From positions 1 to 33,842 of the forward strand of contig JAISBH010000245.1 in assembly GCA_031266295.1 (NCBI GenBank): a stretch of DNA of 33,842 nucleotides, written 5' to 3'. A program made the translations under genes and the position numbers. The stretch comes from Oscillospiraceae bacterium (GTDB taxonomy: Bacteria; Bacillota; Clostridia; Christensenellales; Aristaeellaceae). The notes beneath the pieces are model-generated. The model had not been told where the DNA came from. It ran no database searches and worked only from the letters and a program-made list of their open reading frames with translations. Positions 14,630-27,650 of the stretch are shown piece after piece; within the stretch, counting starts at the first letter, position 1; each line of letters opens with the position of its first letter.

Positions 14630-15550
14630 ATGGCCCCGCTGCTCAGCGTAATAGTTACAGTCCATAATAAAGCTCCGTTCATCAAACGCTGCGCGTTAAG
14701 CGTGCTCAATCAGACGTACCACGACCTAGAATTAGTCATCGTGGATGACGGCTCGACCGACAACAGCGATAGATTGTGCGATATGATCCAAGCCGAGGAT
14801 CCCCGCGTACGCGTGATCCATCAGGATCAGTTGGGCGTGGTAACCGCGCGCCGGAATGGAACAGACTCCGCGCTTGGCGAATATATTCACCATGTAGATG
14901 GTGACGACTGGTTAGAGCCTAACATGGAGTCCGCGCTGACGTCCGCGCTGCTGGATACAGGCGCTGACGTCGCGTTGACTGGTTACATCGACGAGCGCAA
15001 CGGCAAACACTGGCCTGCCGGCACGATTCCTAGCGGCGTATACTCACGCGCGGAATTGGAGAGGAACGTGTTTCCATATATGATAGCATCGCATGGCGAG
15101 GGTACGATGGGGTTGTACTCCTCACTGTGGACCAGCGTAATGCGCAAGTCGCTGATCGCGCCGATACTGCACGGCGTCGACCCGGCGCTGAAACGCGGCG
15201 AGGACTCGCTATGTCTGTATCAGGCCGTAACGCAGGCGCGCGGTGTGGTAATACTGGATGGATCGTATTACCATTACTGCGTCAACCCTTCGAGTGTGAC
15301 TGCCCGCCCCTTGCCCGGCCATTACAGCAACCTCGAGCGGCTGATGAATGGGTACCTGTCCTCTCCATTGGCGGGGATACAGTCAGTCAAGCGGCAGCTT
15401 CCCAACAAATTCTGGTATCATGTGCTGCATGGCGATTTGCTCGCACATAGATCCGGCAAATCATACAGCGCGGAAGAGTTGGTATGCCGCGCGCGCGTCG
15501 TCTCCCAGATAGAGGCTCTGGAACGGAATCTATTTAGAATTACAGAATAA
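14630..15550 (+). CDS. Glycosyltransferase family 2 (1 of 3 tandem)
   Basis: LSVIVTVHNKAPFIKRCALSVLNQTYHDLELVIVDDGSTDNSDRLCD...GEYIHHVDGDDWLEPNM; GGGAGG RBS. Confidence 0.93.
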   Translation: MAPLLSVIVTVHNKAPFIKRCALSVLNQTYHDLELVIVDDGSTDNSDRLCDMIQAEDPRVRVIHQDQLGVVTARRNGTDSALGEYIHHVDGDDWLEPNMESALTSALLDTGADVALTGYIDERNGKHWPAGTIPSGVYSRAELERNVFPYMIASHGEGTMGLYSSLWTSVMRKSLIAPILHGVDPALKRGEDSLCLYQAVTQARGVVILDGSYYHYCVNPSSVTARPLPGHYSNLERLMNGYLSSPLAGIQSVKRQLPNKFWYHVLHGDLLAHRSGKSYSAEELVCRARVVSQIEALERNLFRITE

Positions 15551-15575: not shown

Positions 15576-16811
15576 ATGAATGAACTGCTGACGGTGGTTG
15601 TCACCGTACACAATACAGAGGCATATGTAGGGCAATGCGTGGAAAGCATTATAAAACAAACATACACCCCCCTTGAGATCATTCTGGTGGACGATGGATC
15701 GACGGACGACAGCGACAAGATATGCGATACGCTGGCAACGCTCGATTCTCGCATACAGGTAATCCATCAGGAGCAGCAGGGAGCGGCTGCAGCGCGCAAG
15801 GCAGGAATCCAGGCCGCGACAGGCGAGTACATCCACTTCGTCGACGACGACGACTGGCTGAAACCCAACATGGAAGCCGTGATGATGAACGGCCTAACTA
15901 AGAACGATGCCGACGTCATCGTGTGCGGATATCTGGATTACGTGGGTGATCACGTATACAGGCGCGCGCCCGGCCAGATAAAGCCCGGCGTGTACGACCG
16001 TAAGGCGATGATCCGGGACGTATTCCCATATATGATGCTGCCATATCCGCGCACATATAGCGGCGCTGGGCTGCAGATACCGCTGTGGATGAAGGTGTTC
16101 CGCACATCAATCGCATACGACGCGGTCATGCGCGTCGATCCCTCAATCAAGAAGCACAACGACCTCGCCTGTGTGTATGAGGCAATATACAACGCGAACC
16201 GCATGGTCATAATATCAGATAACCTGTACCATCATCGGCGCGGACGAAAAAACAGCATCACCAAGCGATTCCTGCCCGATCTGTACTCCGTAATCGAGGC
16301 GCTTATGAACCATATGCTCTCCGGTCCGCTGGCGGAAGATCTGCTCATTGCCAAGCAGCTGCCCAAACTCTTCACGATCAATATCGCCTACAGCGAGTCA
16401 ACGAATGGCAGAGGCCAGCGAAGCATCGAGGAGATGCAAGTACGCATGCGCATTCGGCAGCGGATTAAGGATCTGGCACGCCAGTTCACCCAGGCGTCGC
16501 GCAACGCGCAATCTACGGCGCAATCGGTGGGTACACGCCGCCCGAAGCCCAAAGCGCGTCCGTATCATCCGGCGCAACCAAGCGCGAAAGTTCAATCAGG
16601 AGTCCAGACACAGCCGCAATACGCCTCAAGAAAGCGCGTGACAAGACATGTCCAACGTCCGGCGAGGTCGATCCCGCATAAACTCCAGCGCAACGAGAGG
16701 GCAGCCGTGCCGTCTCACCCCAGACAGCACCCCGCCGTGCAACGGAGCAAGCGCAAGCCGCCGATCTCTATCAGGGTCGTCAAGTCTGGGAAGAGGGGGA
16801 GAGATTCATGA
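15576..16811 (+). CDS. Glycosyltransferase family 2 (2 of 3 tandem) with basic low-complexity C-terminal tail
   Basis: LTVVVTVHNTEAYVGQCVESIIKQTYTPLEIILVDDGSTDDSDKICD...GEYIHFVDDDDWLKPNM; last ~90 aa rich in R/K/P/Q. Confidence 0.93.
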   Translation: MNELLTVVVTVHNTEAYVGQCVESIIKQTYTPLEIILVDDGSTDDSDKICDTLATLDSRIQVIHQEQQGAAAARKAGIQAATGEYIHFVDDDDWLKPNMEAVMMNGLTKNDADVIVCGYLDYVGDHVYRRAPGQIKPGVYDRKAMIRDVFPYMMLPYPRTYSGAGLQIPLWMKVFRTSIAYDAVMRVDPSIKKHNDLACVYEAIYNANRMVIISDNLYHHRRGRKNSITKRFLPDLYSVIEALMNHMLSGPLAEDLLIAKQLPKLFTINIAYSESTNGRGQRSIEEMQVRMRIRQRIKDLARQFTQASRNAQSTAQSVGTRRPKPKARPYHPAQPSAKVQSGVQTQPQYASRKRVTRHVQRPARSIPHKLQRNERAAVPSHPRQHPAVQRSKRKPPISIRVVKSGKRGRDS

Positions 16812-17914
16812 CAGGCGATTTAATCAGCGTGGTCGTAACTGTCCACAATACCAAATTGTACTTGCGAAAATGCATTGGGAGCATACTGGGTCAGACATAC
16901 GGCAACCTGGACATCATACTGGTCGACGACGGTTCGACAGACGGTTGCGCTGAACTGTGCGACATGTTCCGGAAAACCGACAAGCGCATACGCGTGATTC
17001 ACCAAAGCGCGAAAGGAGCGGCCGCCGCTCGCGCGGAAGGTATGCGTATCGTCAGGGGCAAGTTTGTCCACTTCGTCGACGACGACGATTGGATGGACGC
17101 GGACATGGAGGAGAAGATGATGCAGGCGCAGGATCGAACCGACGCCGACGTTGTTATAAGCAGACACATCGTTGAGCGCGGTACGCCTCACTTTGGTGGA
17201 TCGGGCAAATGCCCGCCTGGGGTTTACGATCGCGCACGCATGGAGCGGGAGATATTCCCGGGAATGATGAGCTGGAATAACACCAGCGAGCGCGGCATCC
17301 ACCCAAACCTGTGGATGAAGCTGTTCCGTACAGAGACAGTGCGCGACGCCATCCTGCGCGTCGATCCCCGCATACTTAAGGCGAACGATGTCGCGGCCTG
17401 CTACGAGGCACTGTATGCCGCCAACAAGATCGTTATCATACCAGAGAGGTATTATCATTATCGGCTGGGTAGGCCCAAGAGCATCACTACGTCGTTCGTC
17501 GCGAAATACTACGAATCCATGCAAGCCTTGCTGGATCACCTGCTATCCAGCCCTATGGCGCAGCGGCCAGAGATAGCCCGGCAGATTCCACGCATCATGC
17601 GTAGCTGTCTAAATTACGGTATGCAGGGCGGATGCGGCCGAAACGTCGGCGATGAGGCCAAGATACGCGCCAAACTTATGTCGCGCTTATCCCAGCTGGA
17701 GCAAAACCGAACGGCTAGGCGTTTGCAGGCACACCAAAACGGACACCGAACGAATTCGCGCGGAGCAATGCCCGGTGCGCTGAACCCGGCGAGAGCGCCA
17801 AGGGCAACAACTAGGCCGTCAACTCCGCTTGCCATCAGGCGCGTGATAAACCGCGGCAGCAGAGTATCGACGGCTCAAATAGGGAATAGGCCCTTGCCTC
17901 AGGATATAAAATGA
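16808..17914 (+). CDS. Glycosyltransferase family 2 (3 of 3 tandem) with basic low-complexity C-terminal tail
   Basis: ISVVVTVHNTKLYLRKCIGSILGQTYGNLDIILVDDGSTDGCAELCD...GKFVHFVDDDDWMDADM; ATGA overlap with previous gene's stop. Confidence 0.93.
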   Translation: MTGDLISVVVTVHNTKLYLRKCIGSILGQTYGNLDIILVDDGSTDGCAELCDMFRKTDKRIRVIHQSAKGAAAARAEGMRIVRGKFVHFVDDDDWMDADMEEKMMQAQDRTDADVVISRHIVERGTPHFGGSGKCPPGVYDRARMEREIFPGMMSWNNTSERGIHPNLWMKLFRTETVRDAILRVDPRILKANDVAACYEALYAANKIVIIPERYYHYRLGRPKSITTSFVAKYYESMQALLDHLLSSPMAQRPEIARQIPRIMRSCLNYGMQGGCGRNVGDEAKIRAKLMSRLSQLEQNRTARRLQAHQNGHRTNSRGAMPGALNPARAPRATTRPSTPLAIRRVINRGSRVSTAQIGNRPLPQDIK

Positions 17915-24973: not shown

Positions 24974-25726
24974 ATGCGTATCGCGCTGATAGGCTGCCGC
25001 GTATTCTCGCGGGAACTCAACTACTACGCCTCGCAAAGTCCGCATACGGTCGAACTAACCTGGCTGCCCCAAGGGCTGCATTCATATCCCGACAGGCTGC
25101 GCCAGACGGTTCAAGACTCTATAAACGAGCTGGAACGGCAATATACCGAGAAGGAAGCACATTTCGAAGCTAACGTGATCGCGTTGGGGTATGGGCTGTG
25201 CTCGAATGGCGTGATCGGGTTGAAGGCGGGCAGATTGCCGTTGGTCGTGCCGCGCACGGACGACTGCATCGCTGTGTTCCTTGGTTCGCAGGAGCGTTAT
25301 CTGGATTTGTTTAACCAGATGCGCGGGTGTTACTGGCTAAACAACGGCTGGATTGAGTACGGCTGGCTGGAAGAAGGTCACATCCCGTCCAGCGATATGC
25401 TGCGGTTGCGTCGCGCCGAGTACGCCGAGAAGTACGGCGAGGACAACGCGGATTTCCTGATAGAGACTGAGTTGTCATGGATTAAGAACTACCACACGTG
25501 TACCTACATCGAGTCGACGGTGTACGACTGCCCAGCCTATCGCGAGACGGCGCAGCGCTTTGCCAGCGAGAACAGCTGGGAATGCCGGACGGTTTGCGGT
25601 GATCATCGGATGCTACGGATGCTCGCCGAGGGCGCGTGGAACAATGATGAGTTCCTGATCGTACCGCCGGGACATAAAATAGCGCCCGTGTATGACGGGC
25701 GCAAGATGATCGCGGTGGAAGGTTAA
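24974..25726 (+). CDS. DUF1638 domain-containing protein
   Basis: VIALGYGLCSNGVIGLKAGRLPLVVPRTDDCIAVFLGSQERYLDLF and GTYYL-equivalent GCYWLNNGWIEYG; GGAGG RBS. Confidence 0.82.
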   Translation: MRIALIGCRVFSRELNYYASQSPHTVELTWLPQGLHSYPDRLRQTVQDSINELERQYTEKEAHFEANVIALGYGLCSNGVIGLKAGRLPLVVPRTDDCIAVFLGSQERYLDLFNQMRGCYWLNNGWIEYGWLEEGHIPSSDMLRLRRAEYAEKYGEDNADFLIETELSWIKNYHTCTYIESTVYDCPAYRETAQRFASENSWECRTVCGDHRMLRMLAEGAWNNDEFLIVPPGHKIAPVYDGRKMIAVEG

Positions 25727-25736
25727 CCTTCGGTTC

Positions 25737-26507
25737 TCACAGGCTTGTCTTGCCTTGCAGGATATCCCTGGCGTGTAATTCGCCATGGGAATTTAGCCAA
25801 GCCGCCCAGTCGAAGTTCTCGAACAGTCGTTTCCCGTTCTTTTCTACATGGAATAGATTGAGGGCACTTTTCGATCTTGGACGCCTGAATCTGTCCAGAT
25901 TCACTGCGTCGGGATGATTTATATTCCTGTTTGTGAAGAATATCTTGGGATAAGGCAGACGCATGAACCGCTTGACCTGGCTGACATTGCAGCAGCCTTG
26001 CGTTGCTGACATCACTACATATAGTTCATCCGTATTGACGCGCGTTTTTCTGCGATTCCATTTTTCTCGGGCTTCGGCAAATGTTTTGTCATGACTAAAG
26101 TGTAGCGTTACCTTGTCTCCCAGCAAACCGAGCGGATAGCGGAAACCGGTTTTTTGACGCGGTTGTCTGCTGCTGCCTGAGACGTCTACGGGATCAAGCG
26201 TCAAATAATAAGGCAGATTTTCCAGAAACTCTAGATAGTCTTCGGCATACATAAATAGCGACTGAGTCGGTGAGCGATATTCTTGATCCCAAAGCAGATA
26301 GATAAACGCCGCAAGGCAGTTGTTCGAAAACAGTGAGAATGATCTGTTAGTTAAGCTCGCTTTTTTTGATTCCGAATATTGATTCCGTAATTGTTCTTCT
26401 GTCTGTATATCAGGATTGTGGATTCGGGTTTGATTGCGGGTTTGGGTTTGCCTATGGGTTTGATTACGGATTCGAACCCTATTAAGGATTCGAGTTTGAT
26501 CAGACAT
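25737..26507 (-). CDS. DUF1919-type (exopolysaccharide biosynthesis-associated) protein, paralogue 1, with Arg/Gln-rich repeat N-terminus
   Basis: NRSFSLFSNNCLAAFIYLLWDQEYRSPTQSLFMYAEDYLEFLENLPYYLTL...RYPLGLLGDKVTLHFSHDKTFAEAREKWNRRKTRVN...RFMRLPYPKIFF; similar throughout to 26904-27650. Confidence 0.8.
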   Translation of the reverse strand: MSDQTRILNRVRIRNQTHRQTQTRNQTRIHNPDIQTEEQLRNQYSESKKASLTNRSFSLFSNNCLAAFIYLLWDQEYRSPTQSLFMYAEDYLEFLENLPYYLTLDPVDVSGSSRQPRQKTGFRYPLGLLGDKVTLHFSHDKTFAEAREKWNRRKTRVNTDELYVVMSATQGCCNVSQVKRFMRLPYPKIFFTNRNINHPDAVNLDRFRRPRSKSALNLFHVEKNGKRLFENFDWAAWLNSHGELHARDILQGKTSL

Positions 26508-26745
26508 TGGATGTTTTACCTTGGATGGGTGTTTGGTTCCGATTGGGGATTCGGTTTCGATTTCGTATTTGGGCTTTAAGGCGGAGTTGGTCTTGACGAC
26601 GGACGCGGGCTTGATCGCGCAGTTGGGCTTGATAACGGAGCTTTTCTTGATGACGGATGCGGGCTTGATCGCGTAATTGGGCTAGATAATGGAGATGGTT
26701 TTGGTGATGGATTCGGGCTTGTTGGTGGATGGCCGCTTGAACGGA
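26421..26745. repeat. Degenerate 18-bp tandem repeat array
   Basis: Eleven contiguous 18-nt units at 26548-26745 (e.g. gacgcgggcttgatcgcg, cagttgggcttgataacg, gatgcgggcttgatcgcg, gattcgggcttgttggtg), plus further units at 26421, 26451, 26469 and 26487. Confidence 0.85.
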
Positions 26746-26760
26746 GCGATTCTTAATCAA
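26500..26760 (-). CDS. Hexapeptide-repeat ORF overlapping the start of DUF1919 paralogue 1; likely its ancestral N-terminal region, now in another frame
   Basis: TTG start at 26760 with AAGGGAGG 8 nt upstream; MIKNRSVQAAIHQQARIHHQNHLHYLAQLRDQARIRHQEKLRYQAQLRDQARVRRQDQLRLKAQIRNRNRIPNRNQTPIQGKTSNV; stop overlaps next start (ATGTCTGA). Confidence 0.55.
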   Translation of the reverse strand: MIKNRSVQAAIHQQARIHHQNHLHYLAQLRDQARIRHQEKLRYQAQLRDQARVRRQDQLRLKAQIRNRNRIPNRNQTPIQGKTSNV

Positions 26761-26852
26761 GTTGGTTACCTCCCTTTTCCTATGTATTATATGCATACAG
26801 CGTTGTCTTTGATACAAACTATGACGGAAATATGTCCGGCTTTGAGCCAAAT

Positions 26853-26903: not shown

Positions 26904-27650
26904 CTAAATGGTCTTGCCTTGCAGTATGTCTCTTGCCCGTAGCGTACCGCGCGCGTTCAGCCACGCCGTCAGGTCGAAGTTCTCGTAAGGACACAGCCCG
27001 TTCGCGCGAACCGTGTTGGTGGTCAGCGGCACAGAATCACCCAGCTGCCGGTAGGCGCTCAGGTTGACAGCGTCCGGATGATCAACGGGCTTCAGCGCGA
27101 AGTATATCTTCGGGTAAGGCAGGCGCAAAAACCGTTCGCGCTGACTGCCATTGCAGCAGTCGAACAATTCAGACATTATAACGAATATGTTATTCATATC
27201 GACGCGTCCGCAACGGCGGACCCACTTCTCGCGCGCGTCTGCAAACGTGAGGTAATGGTTGAAGTGAATCAGCACGCTGTCGTCCAGCCGACCTAACGGA
27301 TACCGATAATCGGCCCCCATGATCTTGGCGATCTTGTTGGGCAGATGTCTAAGAATCTGCCGGTCGCTGTTTGTGTAGTCGATAGGTTCAACAGTCAGGT
27401 AATGAGGCAGGTTCTCCAGGAAATTTAGATAACTGTCACTCAGCATAAACAGTGACATCGTCGGTGAATTATATCGCAGTCCACGATCTATACAATAACG
27501 AACAGCCAAGCAATTGTTGGTAAACAAAGAAAACGACCTGTTGACCAGTCGCTTTTTTTCGTTCTCAATATATTTAAGCCGCCGCGAATCAGGTGTGCCG
27601 CCCATCGCACCGCTCCCCACCATATGCGCTCTTTGACGCTTTCCTTTCAT
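26904..27650 (-). CDS. DUF1919-type protein, paralogue 2
   Basis: NRSFSLFTNNCLAVRYCIDRGLRYNSPTMSLFMLSDSYLNFLENLPHYLTVEPIDY...YRYPLGRLDDSVLIHFNHYLTFADAREKWVRRCGRVD...RFLRLPYPKIYF; lacks the hexapeptide repeats. Confidence 0.8.
   Translation of the reverse strand: MKGKRQRAHMVGSGAMGGTPDSRRLKYIENEKKRLVNRSFSLFTNNCLAVRYCIDRGLRYNSPTMSLFMLSDSYLNFLENLPHYLTVEPIDYTNSDRQILRHLPNKIAKIMGADYRYPLGRLDDSVLIHFNHYLTFADAREKWVRRCGRVDMNNIFVIMSELFDCCNGSQRERFLRLPYPKIYFALKPVDHPDAVNLSAYRQLGDSVPLTTNTVRANGLCPYENFDLTAWLNARGTLRARDILQGKTI

Follow-up and report, generated by a model that had tools for sequence, protein, structure and literature searches.

Organization of the locus

The window, by which we mean the whole 33,842-nt stretch of DNA that was analysed, comprises positions 1 to 33,842 of contig JAISBH010000245.1 (Oscillospiraceae bacterium, a gut bacterium of the GTDB family Aristaeellaceae). 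On its minus strand, two overlapping open reading frames (ORFs) that together span 26760-25737 share an array of short repeats, and the second of them encodes a DUF1919 domain. The features of the locus are given here in the direction of transcription.

26904..27650, minus strand: tandem DUF1919 paralogue, which has no array
26769..26776, minus strand: Shine-Dalgarno sequence AAGGGAGG, a good to strong site 8 nt before TTG 26760
26500..26760, minus strand: array ORF of 86 aa with TTG start at 26760 and stop at 26502-26500; basic, predicted to form a single alpha-helix
26545..26727, minus strand: upstream array part, read as hexads within the 86-aa ORF, with a 54-nt (18-residue) higher-order unit
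26508..26530, minus strand: divergent linker, next to which a net change of -11 nt relative to the sister species falls
26500..26507, minus strand: 8-nt overlap ATGTCTGA, in which the start codon of the DUF1919 ORF lies over the stop codon of the array ORF
26472..26493, minus strand: 9-bp hairpin (TCGAATCCT-TAAT-AGGGTTCGA) just after the overlap
26415..26504, minus strand: downstream array part in the +1 frame, forming the N-terminus of the DUF1919 ORF (SDQTRI LNRVRI RNQTHR QTQT RNQTRI HN)
25737..26507, minus strand: DUF1919 (PF08942) ORF of 256 aa, with an HMM match of 146 bits over residues 39-239

An earlier note on this DNA had called the downstream ORF a DUF1919 protein and proposed an HMM search as a check; the match obtained is above the curated gathering score of PF08942 (25 bits). 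When the domain of the AlphaFold2 model of the intact sister protein described below was searched with Foldseek, the only PDB match at E <= 0.001 was 2g6t, an uncharacterised Clostridium acetobutylicum protein (E 1e-11, probability 1.00, TM-score only 0.41-0.45), which was also retrieved by phmmer (E 8e-17). The Pfam score and the 2g6t fold both place the protein in the DUF1919 family. DUF1919 genes sit in polysaccharide clusters, as seen for Cps17F in the A. pleuropneumoniae capsule cluster (PMC5901230) and for a gene within the L. johnsonii eps (exopolysaccharide) cluster (PMC3609815), and from this cluster context the domain is probably that of a polysaccharide enzyme. No paper on DUF1919 function or on 2g6t was found.

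The imperfect 18-nt array runs from about 26727 to 26415 and encodes x-Q-x-x-[ILV]-R-type hexads, at first in the 86-aa ORF (HQNHLHYLAQLRDQARIR / HQEKLRYQAQLRDQARVR / RQDQLRLKAQIRNRNRIP) and then one frame over in the DUF1919 ORF. TRF, which had also been proposed as a check, found the array with periods of 18 and 54 (score 182 for period 54), and the 54-nt unit is the stronger of the two. Self-match was 0.58 (18-nt) and 0.65 (54-nt) in the upstream part and 0.58 (18-nt) in the downstream part. None of 20,000 codon shuffles attained these values, and the repeat character of both parts is not due to chance. A position matrix built from the upstream units placed the downstream units AATCAAACCCGAATCCAC (26435) and GATCAAACTCGAATCCTT (26501), which stand in the other frame, in the best 14 of ~67,000 window positions. 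Several statements of the earlier note are borne out at this level: the hexads do occupy two overlapping ORFs in different frames, with both frames, the stop at 26502-26500 and the ATG at 26507 all present; the upstream ORF does have its strong ribosome binding site (AAGGGAGG at 26776-26769, 8-nt spacing) before TTG 26760; and the tandem paralogue does lack the array.

The 86-aa ORF carries a charge (K+R-D-E) of +14 over its first 75 residues, and its helix part has 18 K+R against 4 D+E. It had no Pfam match at E <= 10, and its NCBIfam scores of 13-15 bits were all below the cut-off. A tRNA T-loop-like word, GGTTCGAATCC, occurs in the array hairpin at 26472-26493 and extends one or two bases past it; no tRNA gene was predicted there.

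Junction between the two ORFs

Exactly one usable start codon per frame precedes the domain, namely TTG 26760 and ATG 26507. A weak Shine-Dalgarno-like motif, AAGGT (26522-26518), lies 11 nt before the ATG. The start and the stop are within 10 nt of each other, as in translationally coupled pairs; the co-location is not conserved, as the sole orthologue found is fused. By our own estimate, an in-frame start would fall within a few codons of a stop by chance in perhaps 1 in 5 cases.

The hexad register is broken by 61 nt between hexad starts 26547 and 26486. The size of this break and the +1 relation of the frames had been read correctly before, with coordinates that were off by one. A second register break in the window, RNQTHR-QTQT-RNQTRI, corresponds to a +12 nt difference from the sister species that keeps the frame. 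The hairpin just after the overlap is a perfect 9 bp formed by two array units; it is not stronger than in shuffled sequence (z -1.1) and, by inspection, is absent from the sister sequence. Neither a homopolymer nor a near-perfect repeat is present at the junction, where the longest exact repeat is 8 nt, and neither ORF has further stops or frame breaks. The split is known from one draft assembly (a MAG) and thus from one genome.

An intact gene in a sister species

A syntenic locus, flanked by the same genes and likewise carrying the tandem pair, was found in a sister species (G003 = L010/L037; JAITDK010000262.1, Oscillospiraceae MAG Nm470_bin129), which is a different species from that of the window. 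Here, a single ORF of 388 aa covers array and DUF1919 without interruption, and its hexads stay in register through the junction (PIQSEP PVKSKE PGQPQM PNKVRI RNQTQT RNQPRI), the array of the fused form being ~115 residues long. This agrees with the proposal in the earlier note that a once-continuous gene was split within the array. The purine-rich site and the TTG start are found in the sister species as well.

From SNRNQT to PNKVRI, the sister gene has exactly four hexads (72 nt) and the window 61 nt, i.e., 11 nt fewer. Two other indels distinguish the arrays, both of them in frame: +12 nt downstream of the junction and -9 nt close to the start. The net length change across the junction part of the array is +1 nt (-11 +12). 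The segment around the break also diverges from the sister by many substitutions, and the break is therefore not a lone homopolymer slip. Over ~7.1 kb aligned between window and sister, the junction indel is the only intragenic one whose length is not divisible by three; the remaining indels are intergenic or in frame.

Within the genus, the comparison covered four genomes, three with and one without DUF1919, and besides the window's own genome the array locus was present in only one of them. Elsewhere in the genus, sequences resembling the array were matched only weakly (E 0.007 or worse), and the frames inspected at these were unrelated and R-rich. The unbroken register of the fused form, together with the fused extensions on other DUF1919 genes of the genus, makes the fused state the likely ancestor. 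In G001 and G002, the neighbouring gene (24974-25726) is present but has no DUF1919 gene next to it, and the tandem pair may thus have been acquired in the line shared by window and sister.

Selection on the two parts

Window and sister differ in the array by 18 changes. Read in the frame of the 86-aa ORF, 12 of them are synonymous and 6 nonsynonymous (dS 0.26, dN 0.035, dN/dS 0.135; Fisher p 7e-5 for the rates), and 12 fall at third codon positions. The other two frames give dN/dS values of 1.5 and 2.4. These rates are from two genomes and integrate the whole time since the species parted, including that before the split, and the low value in its own frame implies that the array has been selected as protein there for most of that time. 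Judged by its substitutions, the array is translated and under constraint in the frame of the 86-aa ORF, as the earlier note had supposed in regarding the upstream ORF as still translated.

For comparison, dN/dS is 0.18 in the DUF1919 domain, 0.14 in the tandem paralogue and 0.08 in the neighbour. Polarised with 16 relatives as outgroups, the 22 residue differences in the domain comprise 5 that look derived in the window, 10 that look derived in the sister and 7 that were unassignable. The domain sequence thus shows no sign of decay, and early decay, one of the outcomes considered before, finds no support in its dN/dS or in its count of derived residues, which is lower than that of the intact orthologue.

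Predicted structure

AlphaFold2 modelled the intact sister protein with a helix over residues 2-77 (pLDDT about 90, block means about 78-94), followed by residues 89-119 below pLDDT 50, taken as a linker, and then an alpha/beta domain. The array is thus predicted to be one ~76-residue helix that a disordered linker connects to the domain, with the caveat that R/Q-rich low-complexity sequence and a shallow alignment can make such a helix prediction over-confident. For the 86-aa ORF of the window, the helix is taken from this 90%-identical sister orthologue. The break in the window maps to the low-confidence linker of the model, and each ORF would thereby carry a whole module.

The hydrophobic moment of the array is strongest at 180 degrees, not at 100. 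A left-handed beta-helix, as in hexapeptide-repeat acyltransferases, was considered on the grounds that three hexads make 18 residues, that aliphatic and small residues stand at i/i-2 and that the moment peaks at 180 degrees. It was rejected, as there was no hexapeptide model match and the helix prediction was confident.

Other basic extensions in the genus

A further DUF1919 gene of the window's genome has N-terminal RLERQ pentads in 15-nt units (L002 1450-2232, minus strand; L009 1360-2124, plus strand), and the copy in the sister species is shorter by an in-frame deletion in the pentad region. The DUF1919 protein of a third species has NNRKAx hexads (L038 3938-4702 = L008 1447-2211), and its N-terminus is predicted to form a helix of 57 residues that continues into the domain. 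These proteins resemble the array gene in having a basic, repeat-built N-terminal extension on DUF1919, which in L038 is predicted to be one long helix like the array of the sister protein, and differ from it in repeat unit and period and in not being split. The array was previously described as a gain specific to this copy, and this stands for the tandem paralogue but not for the other DUF1919 proteins of the genus, given their basic extensions. In more distant DUF1919 relatives, the basic N-terminus is mostly short, no more than a few tens of residues. From these sequences, an ancestral basic N-terminus seems to have been extended several times within the genus, each time by other repeats.

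In the window, two of three adjacent family-2 glycosyltransferase genes (15576-16811 and 16808-17914, plus strand) have long R/P/Q-rich basic C-terminal tails (112 aa with 27 K+R and 2 D+E; 68 aa with 14 K+R and 1 D+E), and the third (14630-15550) has none. Similar tails occur on related glycosyltransferases of the other three species of the genus, and the two tails in the window point the same way as the proposed N-terminal lengthening. In a sister species, L026 encodes an RNA-methyltransferase-like protein (TrmH-like by eye) with an N-terminal ESRPPREQYPP repeat array. Two species have an ORF of 331-337 aa directly before a DUF1919 gene (L003 321-1316; L011 308-1321), with a glycine-rich stretch near the C-terminus and the conserved ending NFCECLNASK.

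Discussion

The closest working analogue of the array is the poly-psi domain of NeuO, the polysialate O-acetyltransferase of E. coli K1, a repeat-encoded N-terminal extension (PMC3046976). Catalytic efficiency of NeuO rises in proportion to the length of its RLKTQDS extension, and contact with the anionic polymer has been proposed (PMC3046976). In both cases, tandem repeats at the 5' end of the gene encode a basic, R/K- and Q-containing extension that lies apart from the catalytic fold, the enzyme role being putative here, and the reading frame depends on array length. NeuO differs in having perfect, frame-switching 7-nt units in 2-93 copies on a left-handed beta-helix enzyme, whereas the window has imperfect, frame-neutral 18-mers and a DUF1919 domain. 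Moreover, a start codon is situated at the break in the window, and the DUF1919 domain is thus not simply switched off. The array was accordingly rejected as a NeuO-type phase-variable domain, which would have near-perfect units of a length that is not a multiple of three.

Apart from its N-terminus, the protein is like other DUF1919 proteins (Cps17F, PMC5901230; L. johnsonii eps, PMC3609815; 2g6t) in Pfam domain and fold match, and it is the repeat array of ~115 residues in the fused form that sets it apart from the short basic N-terminus of most relatives. A stop and a start within 10 nt is an accepted signature of translational coupling, as in the GeneTack clusters (PMC3711429). Like the frame-transition pairs described there, the window has overlapping ORFs that are one protein elsewhere, with stop and start within this distance; unlike those clusters, the pair is known from one genome and forms no conserved cluster (PMC3711429).

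The break in the window is documented against an intact relative, and the main alternatives are that it is fixed in the species or that it is an error in the draft genome. A sequence or assembly error, with the real gene continuous like that of the sister, is unlikely but carries some weight: given the net +1 nt (-11 +12), one erroneous base together with in-frame changes in the repeats would look identical, short-read assembly handles repeats poorly, and both parts appear fully constrained. Such an error would nevertheless have had to arise at a junction that contains no homopolymer or near-perfect repeat and that is set apart from the sister by numerous substitutions rather than a single base, while the other genes in the ~7.1 kb alignment have no frame errors. 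It is improbable that the change is a recent inactivating mutation, which abolished the fused protein and left one or both parts to drift, with decay not yet visible. The split is indeed not conserved, being seen in one genome only, but the two ORFs have acquired no extra stop or frame break, the domain has a dN/dS of 0.18 and shows fewer derived residues than that of the intact orthologue, and a start codon is located at the break. That the two genes are ancestral and were fused in the sister species would be compatible with the two genomes taken alone; we regard it as very unlikely, as the hexad register is intact where the gene is fused and interrupted where it is split, and as the basic extensions on other DUF1919 proteins of the genus are fused ones.

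Two further explanations, both raised by the earlier note, find little room. A phase-variable switch, in which slippage in the array alters the frame at a high rate as in neuO, is suggested by the repeat-encoded basic N-terminus on a probable polysaccharide enzyme, as in NeuO (PMC3046976), and by the fact that indels do happen in the junction part of the array. It is nonetheless extremely improbable, because the 18-nt unit is a multiple of three, such that gain or loss of whole units never shifts the frame, and because the units are imperfect, with a longest exact repeat across the junction of 8 nt. Hardly more credible is programmed +1 frameshifting that makes a fused protein from the overlapping ORFs. 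There is an open overlap of ~60 codons in the frame needed, and the 9-bp hairpin is just downstream, but no prfB-like or other strong +1 slippery site was evident by inspection at the stop or junction, the hairpin is within chance, and the sister gene requires no shift.

We therefore favour, as somewhat probable, a recent fission of one gene into two intact modules, which are probably translationally coupled. The original locus would have been a single gene encoding a basic alpha-helical stalk built from repeats, a flexible linker and the DUF1919 domain. In the line leading to the window, the array-derived linker would then have changed in length by a number of nucleotides not divisible by three, which left two overlapping ORFs, each retaining a complete module, with the stalk still translated from its strong TTG site. 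Ribosomes finishing at TGA 26500 would probably restart at the overlapping ATG 26507, giving both proteins sequentially from one mRNA. By analogy with NeuO, the stalk most likely guides the putative enzyme to a polyanion, either an acidic glycan chain or an anionic membrane surface; after the split, it may act through non-covalent association with the enzyme or not at all. A stronger version, that the split is real, fixed and selected and that the stalk now exists as a small protein of its own, produced from the shared mRNA by termination-reinitiation, is in our view improbable. If true, it would mean that a tethered polymer-binding arm has become a diffusible, separately dosed cofactor.

Tuning of glycan enzyme activity by a repeat-encoded charged extension is known in one well-studied case, NeuO. 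In DUF1919, a little-studied family, charged extensions seem to have been gained repeatedly from unrelated repeat units within one bacterial genus, and one copy may have been caught in the process of separating from its stalk at the linker. The fused and split genes would constitute a natural pair, and thus a clean system in which to ask what role such stalks have.
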